DNA of 64,000 nucleotides from Acidobacteriota bacterium (GTDB taxonomy: Bacteria > Acidobacteriota > Vicinamibacteria > Vicinamibacterales > JAFNAJ01), in contig JAHDVP010000014.1 of assembly GCA_023384575.1 (NCBI GenBank), positions 1 through 64,000 of the forward strand, written 5' to 3'. Within the stretch, counting starts at the first letter, position 1. Every line of letters starts with the position of its first letter. A program made the translations under genes and the position numbers. Below the pieces are notes generated by a model that did no database searches, was not told the origin of the DNA, and saw only the letters and a program-made list of their open reading frames with translations. Shown in pieces: positions 23,508 through 30,809 of the stretch.

Positions 23508-23757
23508 GCGAAGGGTGCTCGAGGGGTGTCCTCACTGGCGGTGAAGCGAAGGCCCGTCGTTCAATCGCTGAGGGTCTCCAACCAGGCCACCAGCCTGTAG
23601 CCACCAGCCAGCTTGGCAAGGAAGGGCTAATCTGTCGCTTCGAGCGCGTCACTCAAGAACTAAAGTCAGATCCAGGGATGACTATGCGGAGGAATCCGTG
23701 GTCGGTGGCTGACTCTAAAAGATTGATAAATAACGATCTGTAACGTGTGGTCGACAA

Positions 23758-23773
23758 TGGATCGGTGTTTGCT
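23758..23773 (+). promoter_or_regulatory. Sigma-54-like -24/-12 promoter of PEP-CTERM gene 1
   Basis: TGGATCGGTGTTTGCT keeps the invariant GG and GC with the required 10-bp spacing and the TTTGCT end of the -12 box. It lies 75 bp before the ATG of the PEP-CTERM gene. PEP-CTERM genes are known in other bacteria to be under sigma-54 control. The match is by eye. Confidence 0.55.
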
Positions 23774-23848
23774 ATTTTGGTCGCTACTTGCCCTGTCGCT
23801 GGGGCGCCGCGTCTGTAAGTGTGACCATTGTGGAGATGGTGGGGTGAC

Positions 23849-24448
23849 ATGAAGAAGATTCTTCTAGCGGCGTTGGCCGCCCTGGTTCTGACGGCGGTGC
23901 CTGCACAGGCGCTGATGTTGACGCCCACGACCTCTGGGATGCTCAGCGGGAATCTCGGTGCCGCCAACTGTGAGCCCGGTTGTGTGTACGACGCCTTCGG
24001 GTTGCTGAACGACGGCTCGCTGAGCCTGCTGTACAAGGCAGACGTTGGGCGAGACGACAACGACCCGCGGGGTCCGGCGCCGACCGCTTACAGCGGCACG
24101 TTCGCCGGCTCGTATACGACTGTCTTCTCCAACACCGAGTTCGACCCGTCGAACGCCACCATCTCGTACGTCGCCCCGATGCCCGCCATCGTCTGCGGCA
24201 CCTGCTACCTCGTCATCAAAGACGGCAACCAGACGCCCTCTTACTACTTCTACAACCTCAGCCTGGCGCCCGGTTGGAATGGCACCGACGACATCATCAT
24301 GAGCGGCTTCTGGCCTGGGGCGGGCGCCATTTCCCATGTCGCGATTTGGGGTGCGTCCACGGCGTCCGTTTCCGAGCCTGGGCTGCTGGCGCTGATGGGG
24401 CTCGGCCTGACGGGCATGGGAATCGGCCTGCGGCGTCGGTCGTCCTGA
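23849..24448 (+). CDS. PEP-CTERM sorting-signal protein 1
   Basis: The product has 199 residues. It has an N-terminal signal peptide (MKKILLAALAALVLTAVPAQA) and a C-terminal sorting tripartite tail: SVSEPGLLALMGLGL, a hydrophobic segment and a basic RRRSS end. Such proteins are cleaved by an exosortase and delivered to the surface or extracellular polymer. The mature part is Ser/Thr/Tyr-rich with paired Cys (CEPGC, CGTC). The start at 23849 follows a GGTGGGG purine tract. It is monocistronic, with a sigma-54-like promoter upstream and a terminator hairpin downstream. No exosortase gene lies in the window. Confidence 0.85.
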   Translation: MKKILLAALAALVLTAVPAQALMLTPTTSGMLSGNLGAANCEPGCVYDAFGLLNDGSLSLLYKADVGRDDNDPRGPAPTAYSGTFAGSYTTVFSNTEFDPSNATISYVAPMPAIVCGTCYLVIKDGNQTPSYYFYNLSLAPGWNGTDDIIMSGFWPGAGAISHVAIWGASTASVSEPGLLALMGLGLTGMGIGLRRRSS

Positions 24449-24482
24449 CCATTCCCGTCGTCTCCCCGCCTTCTCGATGAAT

Positions 24483-24512
24483 GACCCGGCCTTCGCGCCG
24501 GGTCTTCGTTTG
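24483..24512 (+). terminator. Rho-independent-like terminator after PEP-CTERM gene 1
   Basis: GACCCGGC (24483-24490) and GCCGGGTC (24497-24504) form a perfect 8-bp stem with a 6-nt loop, followed by TTCGTTTG. It lies 35 bp after the stop of PEP-CTERM gene 1. Confidence 0.7.
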
Positions 24513-24665
24513 TACCGCCTGACCCTCCGCCGTTCGGCGCAGTCGTCAACCGAACGGCGATCCTGCATGGCCTCACGCACAAGGGCCGGCGCCTCGGTCG
24601 GCATGCGAATGAGCCGGTCAGGTCGCAGGCGGGACATTCTTAACGCCCCAGGACAACCCGATCCT

Positions 24666-25226
24666 TCAGTTCCGCCGGCGCAGTCGCCGGCCGGCGAAGA
24701 CGAGGCCCGTTCCGAGCAGCACCAGGGTGGCGGGTTCCGGGACGCTCGCCGTTTGGGTCGTCCAGAAACTGAGGTGCGAGGTGGCCGGCTGGTTCCTGCC
24801 GTTCGGTGTGAGAAGCCCGGCGGTCGAGTACCACCCCTCACTCGAGGGTGGCGCGAGGTGGTAGAGCGCGAACTCCAGGGCCCCCTTGACGGTGAAGTAG
24901 TGGATCAGGGTGCCGTCGATCACGCGCCACTCGCCGGAGAACGAGCCGTCGGGGTCTTCCGGGGAGAACTCGAACAGCGGCGCATCGTCGTCGCTCTTCC
25001 CGTAGAGGGTGATGGTGACCACCATGCCTGTGGCGTCGAGGATGGCCTGCTCGACCGCGCCGTGTGAGTCGTTGCCGGGGGCACGGCAGCCGTCGTTGAC
25101 GAGGTCGATGCCGGGGCCGGACGAGCAGAAGGCGAGCGGCTCAGCCTGTCCTGTAGCACTTCCGACCATCAGCAGTGCCGCGACGACGAGACCGAAACCG
25201 AAGTGTCTGCTCGAGCTGATTCCCAC
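24666..25226 (-). CDS. PEP-CTERM sorting-signal protein 2
   Basis: The product has 186 residues from a GTG at 25226 with GGAGG five bases upstream; the frame is open further up but has no better site. A signal-peptide-like hydrophobic stretch (FGFGLVVAALLMVGSATG) precedes the mature part. The C-terminus is a textbook PEP-CTERM: SVPEPATLVLLGTGL, hydrophobic, then RRLRRRN. The middle is acidic and aromatic. It is convergent with PEP-CTERM gene 1, and the two form an island of surface-protein genes. A sigma-54-like element precedes it. Confidence 0.85.
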   Translation of the reverse strand: MGISSSRHFGFGLVVAALLMVGSATGQAEPLAFCSSGPGIDLVNDGCRAPGNDSHGAVEQAILDATGMVVTITLYGKSDDDAPLFEFSPEDPDGSFSGEWRVIDGTLIHYFTVKGALEFALYHLAPPSSEGWYSTAGLLTPNGRNQPATSHLSFWTTQTASVPEPATLVLLGTGLVFAGRRLRRRN

Positions 25227-25286
25227 GATGGCCTCCACGGGGTGTGCCTGCAGGGGGGTCACCACGACCACCCTGGTCCATGGAGA

Positions 25287-25302
25287 GGCAAGAGGGGATC
25301 CA
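25287..25302 (-). promoter_or_regulatory. Sigma-54-like -24/-12 promoter of PEP-CTERM gene 2
   Basis: The minus strand reads TGGATCCCCTCTTGCC, with GG and GC at 10-bp spacing and the same TGGATC half as the element before PEP-CTERM gene 1. It lies about 60 bp before the GTG start. Confidence 0.5.
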
Positions 25303-25460
25303 GGTTGGCGGCCTGTCGGCGGCCGACACGCCAACCTGTTCTACTGATGGGAGATAGGTGTTTCTAATGAGTGGCGGGTCTGAGGTGGGCGGTCCATAAA
25401 GTCCAATAATAAGAAGACTATTATCTCTATTGTTAGATAGAAAACAAAAGTCTTCCTCTT

Positions 25461-25934
25461 TTAAACCTTGCCTGCCCGCAGCCGCGCCCGGCCCGCCTCC
25501 TGCTCCGCACGGTCACGCTCTCGGCGCTCGTCGATCGACAACGCACCAGGCCCGGTCAGGGCCAGACTCACCAGCCCCGCCAGCAGCGCCAGCGCGTACT
25601 CCACCCCGTGGCCCCGCCCCGGCTCGATGGTCCAGTTCAGGAAGAAGCCAAACGGCCAGTGCACCGTCCAGATGGCGACCGCCATCACGCCCGCCAGCGC
25701 CAGCGCGGCCCACCGCGCACACCACCCCAGGATCAGCGCCGCGCCCCCGATCACCTCGACCGCGCCAGCCAGCATCGCTAGAACGAGCGGCGGCCAGAGG
25801 CCGAGACCTTCGAACGCCAGCGCGGTGCCGAACACCCCGCCGGCGTCACCGACCGGGACGAGTTTCGGCACGCCGTGCGCGATGAAGATCGTCCCCCAGA
25901 CGACACGTTGGACCGCGGGGCCCCAGGCTCGCAA
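25461..25934 (-). CDS. DoxX-family membrane protein
   Basis: The product has 157 residues with four predicted transmembrane helices (about 8-25, 45-70, 72-92, 105-125). The GTIFIAHGVPKL start and later Glu/Gly pattern (AGAVEVIGGAALILG) are typical of DoxX/YphA proteins, inner-membrane proteins linked to thiol or oxidative homeostasis in some bacteria. The start is a TTG at 25934 with AGGAG about 11 bases upstream, so it is less certain. The C-terminal tail is basic and soluble. It is divergent from the Tat aminotransferase gene. Confidence 0.82.
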   Translation of the reverse strand: MRAWGPAVQRVVWGTIFIAHGVPKLVPVGDAGGVFGTALAFEGLGLWPPLVLAMLAGAVEVIGGAALILGWCARWAALALAGVMAVAIWTVHWPFGFFLNWTIEPGRGHGVEYALALLAGLVSLALTGPGALSIDERRERDRAEQEAGRARLRAGKV

Positions 25935-27400: not shown

Positions 27401-28753
27401 TTACGACTCCTCGCGGAGGTCGATCCCGAACCGCTCGGCCATCCGGTACAACGTCCGCCGGTCGATGCCGAGCACCTCGGCCGCGCGCGTCCGGTTACCT
27501 CCAACGGCATCGAGCACGTGGCGCAGGTAGCGCCGTTCGATCTCGTCGAGCGACGGCAGGTCCTGGAACAGGCTCTCGTGCAGGTCGCGCACCCCGCCAC
27601 GCAGCGTCGGCGGCAGATCGGCCACGTCGATGGTCGTCCCCCGGCTGAACACCACCAGACGCTCGATCGTGTTCTCGAGCTCCCGCACGTTGCCGGGCCA
27701 GTCGTAGGCCTGGAGCGCCGCGAGCGCCGGGGCGGCGATCTCCACGTGCCGCTGCGCCCGGCTGCACGCGTTCGCCAGAAATCGCGCCACGAGCAGCGGG
27801 ATGTCCTCACGGCGCTCGCGCAGCACCGGCATCTGAATCGTGATCACGCCGAGCCGGTAGTAGAGATCGGGGCGAAACCGCTGCTCGGCCACCGCCTTCT
27901 CGAGATCGATGTTCGTCGCCGCGATGATCCGGAGGTCGACCCGCACGGTCCGCGAGCTGCCGACCGGCCGGACCTCGCCCTCCTCGAGCACGCGCAGCAA
28001 CTTGACCTGCAGGCCGGGCGAGGTCTCACCGATCTCGTCGAGGAACACCGACCCGGTGTGCGCCTGCTCGAAGAGCCCCTTCGTATCGGCGATGGCCCCG
28101 GTGAACGCCCCGCGCGTGTGTCCGAAGATCTCCGACTCGAGCAGCGTCTCGGCGATGGCTCCGCAGTTGACCGCCACGAACGGCCGCGCGGCACGCGGGC
28201 CGTTCTGATGAATCGCCCGCGCCACGAGCTCCTTGCCGGTCCCGCTCTCGCCGGCAATCAGCACGGGCGCGGTGGTCTGCGCCGCCCGCGCCACCTGCTT
28301 GTACACCGCCAGCATGGCCGGGCTCCGTCCGACGAGGCCCGCCGGCTGCGCGTCGCGCGGTGGTCGCACGGCGCCCTCGTCGGCGTGCGCGCGCTGGGCG
28401 AGCGCGCGTTCCACGGTCGCCTTGATCTCGCCGATGTCGAAGGGCTTGCTGATGAAGTCGAAGGCCCCGTTCCGCGTGGCGTCGATGGCGGTCTCGAGCG
28501 ACCCGAAACCGCTGATGAGCACCACCTGCGTGTCGGGGCTCTGGTGCTTGAAGGTGCGGAGCAGGTCGAGGCCGTTCTGCCGCGCGTCGAGGTGGATGTC
28601 GGAGATCACGAGGTCGAACGCGGTCGCCGCCGCGAGGGCGAGCGCCCGGTCTGGATGGTGCGCCACCTCGATCTCGCGCCCTGGCAGCGCGAGCAGCTCG
28701 CGCATGAAGCGGCACGTCTCCGGGTCGTCGTCCACGATGAGGATGCGAGGCAC
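27401..28753 (-). CDS. NtrC-type sigma-54-dependent response regulator
   Basis: The product has 450 residues: receiver domain (1-120, phospho-acceptor Asp52), AAA+ ATPase (about 140-370) with Walker A GESGTGKE (168-175) and the sigma-54 contact loop GAFTGA (215-220), and a C-terminal Fis-type helix-turn-helix (GNRTRAAEVLGIDRRTLYR). It activates RpoN promoters after phosphorylation. It follows the histidine kinase gene with a 3-nt gap. The two PEP-CTERM genes with sigma-54-like promoters lie 2-4 kb away, making them candidate targets (inference). Confidence 0.95.
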   Translation of the reverse strand: MPRILIVDDDPETCRFMRELLALPGREIEVAHHPDRALALAAATAFDLVISDIHLDARQNGLDLLRTFKHQSPDTQVVLISGFGSLETAIDATRNGAFDFISKPFDIGEIKATVERALAQRAHADEGAVRPPRDAQPAGLVGRSPAMLAVYKQVARAAQTTAPVLIAGESGTGKELVARAIHQNGPRAARPFVAVNCGAIAETLLESEIFGHTRGAFTGAIADTKGLFEQAHTGSVFLDEIGETSPGLQVKLLRVLEEGEVRPVGSSRTVRVDLRIIAATNIDLEKAVAEQRFRPDLYYRLGVITIQMPVLRERREDIPLLVARFLANACSRAQRHVEIAAPALAALQAYDWPGNVRELENTIERLVVFSRGTTIDVADLPPTLRGGVRDLHESLFQDLPSLDEIERRYLRHVLDAVGGNRTRAAEVLGIDRRTLYRMAERFGIDLREES

Positions 28754-28756
28754 GCG

Positions 28757-30346
28757 TCAGGCCTCCTGAAGCGCCGGCGCGCCGGCCTTGCCCGGCAGCT
28801 CGATGACGAACACGGTCCCCTCGCCGGGAGCGCTTCGCACGCCGATCGCGCCACCGTGAGCGACGACGACATCGCGGGTGATGGCGAGGCCGAGCCCCGT
28901 GCCCTGCCCGGCGGGTTTCGTCGTCACCCACGGGTCGAAGATGCGAGGCAGCAGGTCCTCGGGGATACCGTGCCCCGTGTCGGAGATCTCGATGTGGCTC
29001 GTGAGCCCCCGGGCGGCGGCGCGGATGTGGATGGTCCCGCCGTCGGGCATCGCGTCGAGGCTGTTGTTGACGAGATTGAGCAGCGCCAGTTCGAGCTGCA
29101 CCACGTCGCCGAGCATCCAGGGCAGGTCATCGGTGACGTCGAGGTCGAGCGCGATGCCGGCGGCGGCGAGCCGGGGCCGTGCCACCTCCGAGATACGGCG
29201 CAGCACCTCGGTCGGGAACACGGGTTCCGACCGCACGACCGGGTTGCGCACCGCCTCGAGCGTCGCCCGGACGAAAGAGGTGACCTTGCGGATCTGCTCC
29301 TCGACGTTGCGCAGCCGCTCGAGGCTGCGTGGCTCGCGCCCCGCGTTCTCCTCGATCATCATCTGGACGTAACCCGAGATCAGGTTGAGCGGGGTCCCGA
29401 TCTGGTGTGCGAGGTTCGCGGCGGTCTGACCGGCCGCGGCCGTCTGCTCGGCCCGCGCCAGCGCCTCGCGCAAGGCGAACGTCCGCTCGTAGCTCGCCAC
29501 GAGGTCGTCGTTGCGCCTGCGCAGCGTCTCGGTCGCCTCGTCCACGCGCTCCTGCAGCGAGTCGTGCAGCTGCTGCATCCGGTCGAGCATGTCATTGAGC
29601 CCGGTAGCCACGGTGCCCAGTTCGTCGCGGCGCGCGATGGCGGCGCGCGCGGCGAGGTCGCCCTCGCCGACCCGTCGCATCGTGGCGAGCAGCGTGGCGA
29701 TCGGCCGGTGCACGAGCGGCCGCGCGAGCGCGTCGACGAGCAGCGTCAGCAGCAGGACGGTGGCCGCCGTGAACCAGAACGCGATGAGCCGGCCGCGCCG
29801 CCGCATCTGGAGCACCGGGTCGAGCGAGACGGTGACCGCGACCGCGCCCAGGGTTCGCTCCTCGAACTGCACCGGCATCGCGACGGTCTGGTACGGCCCC
29901 TGGCCCCTTCCCCAGACGACGGCGTTCTGGCGGAACGCCGCGCGGGCCAGGGCGATTTCCTCGTCGCGCGGGGTGGTCGACGTGCTCGCCTGCCAGTCGG
30001 GCGTCGGCGGCTCGAGCGCCAGGACGGTCGCGCTCTGAACGGGCGACAGGTCGACGTACTGCTGGAGCTGCGCGTTGAGGTGGGCGGGTGTCGGCAGCGT
30101 CCCCTGCACCTCGATGTCGTCGGCGATGCCCTGCGCCGCCAGGTGCGCCGCCTGCCGCAGGTCCTGCTCGACCTGCCGTTCGAACACCCGCAGCTGGATG
30201 TAGAACCCCGACCCCACGACCGACGCCACGACCACCGCGACGAGCATCGCCAGTCGCGCGCGCAGCGACAGCGCGCTCGGCGAAACCGCCACAGTGGGGA
30301 CGTTTGGCCGGGGCGATTCCATGGGCGCGGCGTCTGGCGAGGTCAC
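28757..30346 (-). CDS. Membrane histidine kinase, partner of the NtrC-type regulator
   Basis: The product has 529 residues from a GTG at 30346 with AGGAG five bases upstream. Domains: TM1 (about 30-50), extracytoplasmic sensor to about 185, TM2, HAMP (DELGTVATGLNDM region), a coiled coil, an H-box with His314 in NLAHQIGTPLN, and an ATPase with NNSLDAMPDGG, DTGHGIPE and GTGLGLAI. It should phosphorylate the adjacent NtrC-type regulator. The sensed signal is unknown. Confidence 0.92.
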   Translation of the reverse strand: MTSPDAAPMESPRPNVPTVAVSPSALSLRARLAMLVAVVVASVVGSGFYIQLRVFERQVEQDLRQAAHLAAQGIADDIEVQGTLPTPAHLNAQLQQYVDLSPVQSATVLALEPPTPDWQASTSTTPRDEEIALARAAFRQNAVVWGRGQGPYQTVAMPVQFEERTLGAVAVTVSLDPVLQMRRRGRLIAFWFTAATVLLLTLLVDALARPLVHRPIATLLATMRRVGEGDLAARAAIARRDELGTVATGLNDMLDRMQQLHDSLQERVDEATETLRRRNDDLVASYERTFALREALARAEQTAAAGQTAANLAHQIGTPLNLISGYVQMMIEENAGREPRSLERLRNVEEQIRKVTSFVRATLEAVRNPVVRSEPVFPTEVLRRISEVARPRLAAAGIALDLDVTDDLPWMLGDVVQLELALLNLVNNSLDAMPDGGTIHIRAAARGLTSHIEISDTGHGIPEDLLPRIFDPWVTTKPAGQGTGLGLAITRDVVVAHGGAIGVRSAPGEGTVFVIELPGKAGAPALQEA

Positions 30347-30428
30347 GAAAGCTCCTGGGTCCGTTCGACCACCGGATCTTATCGCGCGAGGCGACAGTCG
30401 GCACGAGGTTTGAATATTCGGGTGTCGA

Positions 30429-30809
30429 ATGACCGCACCCTCGCAGACCGGTGTCGCTCCGCTCGGCGCCAAGCTGCTCGCGCTGCCGCTCATCGTCGGC
30501 GTGCTCGCGGCCCTGCAGGTCGACTCGAAGCCCTCGGCCTTCGAGCCGTCGGCCGTGGTCGGCGAGGTCACGGGCTACGACGCCATCAGCCGCGAGCTCG
30601 TCGTCGAGACGCGCGACGGCGAGGCCCGGTTCGTCGTGGCGAGCAACGCCCTCGTCCGGCAGGGGGCGCGGCTCGTGGGTACCGATGCGCTCGAGCGGGC
30701 GCACGGTCTCAACGCCAAGGTCCGCTACGGGCGCGTGCACCAGGACGCGGTCGCGTCGCACATCGTGCTGGCACGAGCCCTGGCGCCCGCAGCGGCGCTC
30801 ACCCGCTGA
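30429..30809 (+). CDS. Small secreted or membrane-anchored protein, unknown function
   Basis: The product has 126 residues. A hydrophobic segment at about 15-30 (LLALPLIVGVLAALQV) acts as signal peptide or anchor. The rest is a small beta-rich domain (VVGEVTGYDAISRELVVET) that resembles an OB-like or SH3-like barrel, followed by an Ala-rich tail. It is divergent from the histidine kinase gene, 82 bp apart. I do not recognise the family. Expression as a target of the adjacent two-component system is possible but not shown. Confidence 0.6.
   Translation: MTAPSQTGVAPLGAKLLALPLIVGVLAALQVDSKPSAFEPSAVVGEVTGYDAISRELVVETRDGEARFVVASNALVRQGARLVGTDALERAHGLNAKVRYGRVHQDAVASHIVLARALAPAAALTR

Follow-up and report, generated by a model that had tools for sequence, protein, structure and literature searches.

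The window, the whole stretch of DNA analysed here, covers the initial 64 kb of contig C14 in an acidobacterial genome of 5.89 Mb in 112 contigs, rated 100% complete. Two genes for PEP-CTERM surface proteins, gene 1 and gene 2, are located in this window in a convergent, tail-to-tail orientation (Table 1). The start of gene 2 was taken as a GTG codon, the most plausible choice, with GGAGG just upstream and a signal peptide downstream. Both proteins passed the TIGR02595 PEP-CTERM cut-off of 16 bits (17.7 and 22.9 bits). When the two products were compared by BLAST, the match was confined to the last ~39 residues, and the proteins are thus otherwise different, as had been described earlier, though both weakly matched the same EDSAP-1/THxN PEP-CTERM families.

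Table 1. Features of the PEP-CTERM locus and of the neighbouring regulatory genes (positions in the window).
Feature	Position	Strand	Remarks
Palindrome of gene 1	23664-23683	.	AGTC-AGATCCAGGGAT-GACT; perfect; 75 bp before the promoter GG
Predicted sigma-54 -24/-12 promoter of gene 1	23758-23773	+	TGGATCGGTGTTTGCT; 17.3 bits; ranks third of about 120
Gene 1, PEP-CTERM surface protein	23849-24448	+	199 aa
Gene 2, PEP-CTERM surface protein	24666-25226	-	about 186 aa from GTG 25226
Predicted sigma-54 -24/-12 promoter of gene 2	25287-25302	-	TGGATCCCCTCTTGCC; 11.8 bits
Palindrome of gene 2	25400-25419	.	AGTC-TTCTTATTATTG-GACT (minus-strand reading); perfect; 98 bp before the promoter GG
NtrC-type response regulator of the earlier note	27401-28753	-	adjacent gene; not considered the dedicated activator
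HAMP histidine kinase, partner of the regulator	28757-30571	-	not PrsK

An earlier note on this DNA had described a sigma-54-like promoter 60-75 bp before each of the two genes, with an NtrC-type regulator and its kinase nearby. Both elements were found as described, with GG-N10-GC kept in each; the distance from the end of the element to the start codon is 75 bp for gene 1 (ATG) and 60 bp for gene 2 (GTG), and the regulator and kinase are present as claimed. Since a loose GG-N10-GC is common, occurring on average in 96 of 119 shuffled upstream regions, the two elements could be taken for chance matches in a GC-rich genome. For an evaluation of the elements, 126 PEP-CTERM genes of this bacterium and of ten relatives were collected, and their starts were picked by signal peptide and ribosome-binding site. 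A sigma-54 promoter was expected to have GG and GC ten bases apart, with the consensus TGGCAC-N5-TTGC. Within 200 nt upstream of the starts, GG-N8-TTGC was found for 51 of 119 PEP-CTERM genes; shuffles gave 7.1 and the opposite strand gave 5. The enrichment was limited to a GG-TTGC spacing of 8, and the spacings of 3-7 and 9-15 yielded 5-12. A de novo matrix iterated from the GG-N8-TTGC sites gave YGGCACG-N4-TTGCW, which is the canonical sigma-54 -24/-12 consensus. With this matrix, sites above 9.5 bits were observed on the sense strand of 73 of 118 PEP-CTERM genes and on the antisense strand of 4, a count for which part of the set had served in training and which is guarded by the antisense control and the held-out genomes. 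The scores were bimodal, and in the 73 promoters the -12 GC lay a median of 80 bp from the start codon. The exact spacing, the strand bias, the bimodal scores and the de novo consensus contradict chance, as do the perfect palindrome that each gene has at the expected distance and the recurrence in unseen genomes, both described below. Chance matches are hardly credible as an explanation, and the view of the earlier note that the two elements are sigma-54-type promoters of a PEP-CTERM regulon is supported.

In the genome of the window (G000), 7 of the 12 PEP-CTERM genes had a site above the threshold, i.e., gene 1, gene 2, and the genes on contigs C36, C9, C20, C1 and C11. The C1 and C9 sites deviate from the -12 GC and are weaker than their scores imply. 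The background was 98 sites above 9.5 bits per 427 kb, nearly all of it from this genome and with both strands counted, or 0.029 per 250-nt upstream region; at this rate, the binomial probability of 7 in 12 genes is about 1e-8. The earlier note had proposed a genome scan for the TGGATC form shared by the two window elements. A lack of enrichment before other PEP-CTERM genes had been named there as the refuting outcome. The general -24/-12 element was enriched before such genes and thus escaped this refutation, but the exact form was not enriched: TGGATC-N5-TTGC occurs in five copies in the 5.9-Mb genome, two of which are the window elements, and none of the other three precedes a PEP-CTERM gene. 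The exact form was therefore rejected as the signature of the regulon; TGGATC is a local variant, and the signature is the general -24/-12 consensus. As judged from about 30 sigma-54-activator domains, the genome probably contains rpoN. A search for the RpoN box in stretches of this genome, a small part of the whole, returned none.

A convincing promoter site was absent in 45 of the 118 PEP-CTERM genes. Both promoter and palindrome were lacking at the conserved PEP-CTERM genes G000:C7:127603 and C7:160941 and at their counterparts G003:C57:35468 and C57:2133. Since these genes have neither signal in either genome, part of the PEP-CTERM set seems to be under other control. Besides, the TGGATCGACTCTTGC element at G000:C19:63740 (L018:1501) is identical to one before a PEP-CTERM gene of G012; it is located ~100 bp before an ATG that was not recognised as the start of a PEP-CTERM gene, and no palindrome pair was found there.

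A palindrome, AAGTC-NNCC-N4-GGNN-GACTT, located 40-110 bp upstream of the promoters, had been overlooked in the earlier note. AGTC-N12-GACT was the most enriched 4+4 dyad upstream of the promoters (16 of 73, compared to a shuffle maximum of 9). When one mismatch was allowed, the palindrome was found at 40-110 bp for 40 of the 73 promoters, whereas 23 control palindromes of the same letters gave 0-8, mostly 0-4. Furthermore, the symmetric inner CC...GG emerged in the logo although it had not been selected for. In the genome of the window, the palindrome accompanied 6 of the 7 PEP-CTERM promoters; in 427 kb, nearly all of it from this genome, nine promoter-plus-palindrome pairs were found, seven of which are exactly PEP-CTERM promoters, compared to 0-4 pairs with control palindromes. 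A relative of gene 1 in G003 (35% identity) was also preceded by the promoter and by the palindrome with one mismatch, and the remaining upstream DNA was unalignable. Sigma-54 promoters are further expected to have an activator-binding site upstream, in most cases no more than about 200 bp away, and the perfect palindromes of both window genes, at 75 and 98 bp, lie in this range. Judged from sequence, it is very probable that both window elements represent sigma-54 promoters and that each has its own matching activator site. The region 25400-25480 around the palindrome of gene 2 is strikingly AT-rich in this GC-rich genome, and an extra AGTC half-site is located at 25449. The proteobacterial TTTACA box was rejected as the upstream motif, since TTTACA/TGTAAA was found at only 2 of the 73 promoters and at none of those in this genome.

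Since the NtrC-type regulator and its kinase lie 2-4 kb from the PEP-CTERM genes, and a linked gene is a reasonable guess, the earlier note had proposed this pair as the local PrsK/PrsR; the regulator would then bind the palindrome. The regulator is indeed an intact sigma-54 activator with a receiver and a Fis-type helix-turn-helix (HTH) domain. Nevertheless, it scored 371 bits against the PrsR model TIGR02915, the cut-off of which is 502.6, and ranked 18th among the activators of this genome, none of which passed (best, 441 bits). The kinase scored 83 bits for PrsK, with a match covering the generic kinase core only, and no protein of this genome passed the TIGR02916 cut-off of 300 (best, 99 bits). 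In the tree, the regulator fell into a clade of its own and did not group with the two relatives' proteins that passed the PrsR cut-off. Orthologues of the regulator (63-77% identity) were found in G001, G002, G013, G019, G005, G007 and G014, the last three of which had no PEP-CTERM hits. In contrast, they were missing from G003, G006 and G018 despite 27, 19 and 29 PEP-CTERM genes, respectively, and the PEP-CTERM promoters of these three genomes carry the AGTC palindrome. No association was seen between the presence of the orthologue and that of PEP-CTERM genes (Fisher p 0.36-0.67). Moreover, neither a promoter-plus-palindrome pair nor an exact palindrome was found around the regulator and its seven orthologues, and no such kinase-regulator pair was found in 20 kb of G003 around the gene 1 relative. 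The regulator was rejected as PrsR on model score, phylogeny and distribution, and it is very improbable that the adjacent pair is the local PrsK/PrsR and reads the palindrome.

Among the genomes compared, just two, G006 and G018, had a protein over the PrsR cut-off. Both are single-contig genomes of the order to which this bacterium belongs, and their own PEP-CTERM promoters use the AGTC palindrome. The two response regulators concerned (G006:C1:7375707-7377035, L224; G018:C1:6389780-6391105, L223) are located near PEP-CTERM clusters. Since PrsR is missing from most of the palindrome-using genomes, it cannot be the general reader of the palindrome and was rejected as its binder.

Four genomes, G170, G178, G232 and G270, had no role in motif discovery and were held out; their sequence was taken around the candidate activator described below and the exosortase. 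In the 339 kb of these genomes, 13 promoter-plus-palindrome pairs were found, compared to 0-6 with control palindromes, so that lone one-mismatch cases can be chance. Pairs were located before 3 of the 7 PEP-CTERM open reading frames detected by the C-terminal model, upstream of the exosortase gene in both G170 and G232, and before an XrtA-system-like amidotransferase and a glycosyltransferase. An operon encoding PilZ proteins and the candidate activator was preceded by a pair in G170 and also, outside the held-out set, in G003, in the latter with a perfect palindrome. Upstream of the same operon in the genome of the window, there was a promoter-like site of 13.5 bits (L150:17729) and no clear palindrome. 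By these sequence comparisons, the window promoters very probably belong to a surface-protein and exopolysaccharide (EPS) regulon common to the relatives. In G170, one perfect palindrome is located between divergent sigma-54-type promoters of the exosortase and of a receiver-PAS-GGDEF-EAL protein (L392:12547-12688), and this shared palindrome suggests a link to cyclic di-GMP.

In the genome of the window, 11 PEP-CTERM genes passed the Pfam cut-off, and there is one exosortase, at C64:4205-5716, which is of type W (NF038142; 452 bits, compared to a cut-off of 425). The locus contains genes for UDP-glucose dehydrogenase, an ATPase, export, Wzz, a kinase, a deacetylase and the exosortase. The deacetylase passed its XrtA-system cut-off, and the Wzz, export, kinase and ATPase genes are related to that system. 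Beside these genes, behind two PilZ proteins, a receiver-less sigma-54 activator of 355 aa is encoded (C64:15697-16761). Its orthologues, 69-87% identical, are located beside EPS genes in G001, G003, G006, G008, G012 and G018. Within the order, in the phylum-wide sample, 9 genomes had both the activator family and an exosortase, 3 had the activator only, none had the exosortase only and 18 had neither (p 1.5e-5). Among the order genomes newly examined, an exosortase was found in 5 of 7 activator carriers and in 0 of 12 non-carriers (p 0.002). Both co-occurrence tests ignore shared ancestry. Elsewhere in the phylum, exosortases mostly occur without the activator family, which confines the link to the order. 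A scan for named relatives of the activator, made with generic AAA+ peptides, recovered ordinary activators and is uninformative on the distribution of the family. There are exceptions to the co-occurrence. In G013 and G019, which have the palindrome, the family is represented only by a divergent member (53-56%), and in G009, which lacks a member, one promoter carries the palindrome. Members were also seen in G005 and G011, which gave no PEP-CTERM hit, and in G008, G120 and G194, in which no exosortase was detected. The family includes several paralogues.

By its location, its co-occurrence with exosortases and its apparent autoregulation, the exosortase-locus receiver-less activator, or a member of its small family, is most likely the activator of the regulon, and it is predicted to bind the palindrome. 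Another, unprofiled enhancer-binding protein could instead activate the regulon, e.g., a two-component regulator with a Fis-type HTH. The genome has about 30 sigma-54-activator proteins, of which few were profiled, and Fis-type activators bind palindromes of the size of AGTC-N12-GACT. However, neither the exosortase locus nor the sequence behind the palindrome yielded another activator, and the receiver-less family tracks the exosortases, with the palindrome before its operon in two genomes. We thus consider an unprofiled activator unlikely, though clearly less so than the adjacent NtrC-type pair.

The best explanation overall, to which we give a probability of about 0.7, combines the sigma-54 promoters, the palindrome module and the exosortase-locus activator. 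Both PEP-CTERM genes would be transcribed by sigma-54 RNA polymerase from the -24/-12 promoters, and a dimeric enhancer-binding protein at the palindrome, ~40-110 bp upstream, would activate each promoter. The same promoter-plus-palindrome module may also drive other PEP-CTERM genes of this genome and, in the relatives, exosortase genes, EPS genes and the PilZ operon encoding the activator. Through this common module, the surface proteins would be expressed together with the machinery for their sorting and embedding. The activator would be the receiver-less C64 protein or a member of its family. An input of cyclic di-GMP may be provided via the PilZ proteins; RxxxR...DxSxxG is the signature expected of cyclic di-GMP binders, and one of the PilZ proteins carries it. 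Of this explanation, the promoters, the palindrome with its regulon and the link of the activator family to exosortases are shown by sequence statistics, from which the use of sigma-54 in vivo, the binding of the palindrome by this activator and the cyclic di-GMP input are deduced. More tentatively, and at less than even odds, we speculate that the whole exosortase, EPS and PEP-CTERM programme of the order is one sigma-54 regulon, in which an autoregulated receiver- and sensor-less activator is controlled by cyclic di-GMP via the co-transcribed PilZ proteins and not by a PrsK-type kinase.

A sigma-54 PEP-CTERM motif and PrsK/PrsR were reported only in Proteobacteria by Haft et al. 2006 (PMC1569441), who noted that further regulators and motifs were still to be found. 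Since the published regulon is proteobacterial only, the acidobacterial regulon would be a new version. As in the PrsK-PrsR-PrsT regulon (PMC1569441), a -24/-12 promoter is located ~70-80 bp before the PEP-CTERM start, with an activator motif upstream and a regulator near the exosortase and EPS genes; the proteobacterial promoter-to-start distance of 71 nt is close to the acidobacterial median. However, the proteobacterial motif is of 17 nt and ends with TTTACA (PMC1569441), whereas the acidobacterial one is the 20-nt AGTC-N12-GACT, and the candidate activator here is receiver-less and lies behind PilZ proteins, with no PrsR or PrsK over the cut-offs in the genome of the window. The pepA gene of Aquincola tertiaricarbonis has an experimentally mapped, RpoN1-dependent -24/-12 promoter, TGGCAC / CTGCTT (PMC9850573). 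The mechanism, a PEP-CTERM gene under a sigma-54 promoter, is thus real elsewhere; yet Aquincola belongs to the Proteobacteria and has PrsK/PrsR as well as the enhancer sequence predicted earlier for that group (PMC9850573). The families of exosortase W (NF038142) and the XrtA system concern the sorting and EPS machinery and say nothing of how it is regulated. Our literature search, of incomplete coverage, returned no paper in which PEP-CTERM, exosortase and Acidobacteria are mentioned together, which is a weak negative. The candidate promoter, operator, regulon and activator provide a concrete case from another phylum, suggesting that PEP-CTERM genes came under sigma-54 control either before the PrsK/PrsR pair existed or on more than one occasion. 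The promoter-plus-palindrome pair may also serve as a DNA-level marker of surface-matrix genes in soil Acidobacteriota that have been little studied.

Pfam found no HTH in the candidate activator. Its structure model was confident (pLDDT 88.6) and all-helical, and a structure search with the C-terminal domain gave weak matches only, to the HTH-containing KorB, FixJ and NadR, which were not counted as evidence. A paralogue of the activator in the genome of the window is encoded divergently from a TIGR03790-family gene with PrsT-like TPR repeats (L260:441-2710, on contig C32), upstream of which a sigma-54-type promoter and the palindrome are located. Outside the order, in G143, G089, G027, G042, G214 and others, the unusual C-terminal domain of the activator occurs in open frames of 1,650-1,841 codons, which are perhaps fusions with sensor or kinase modules.
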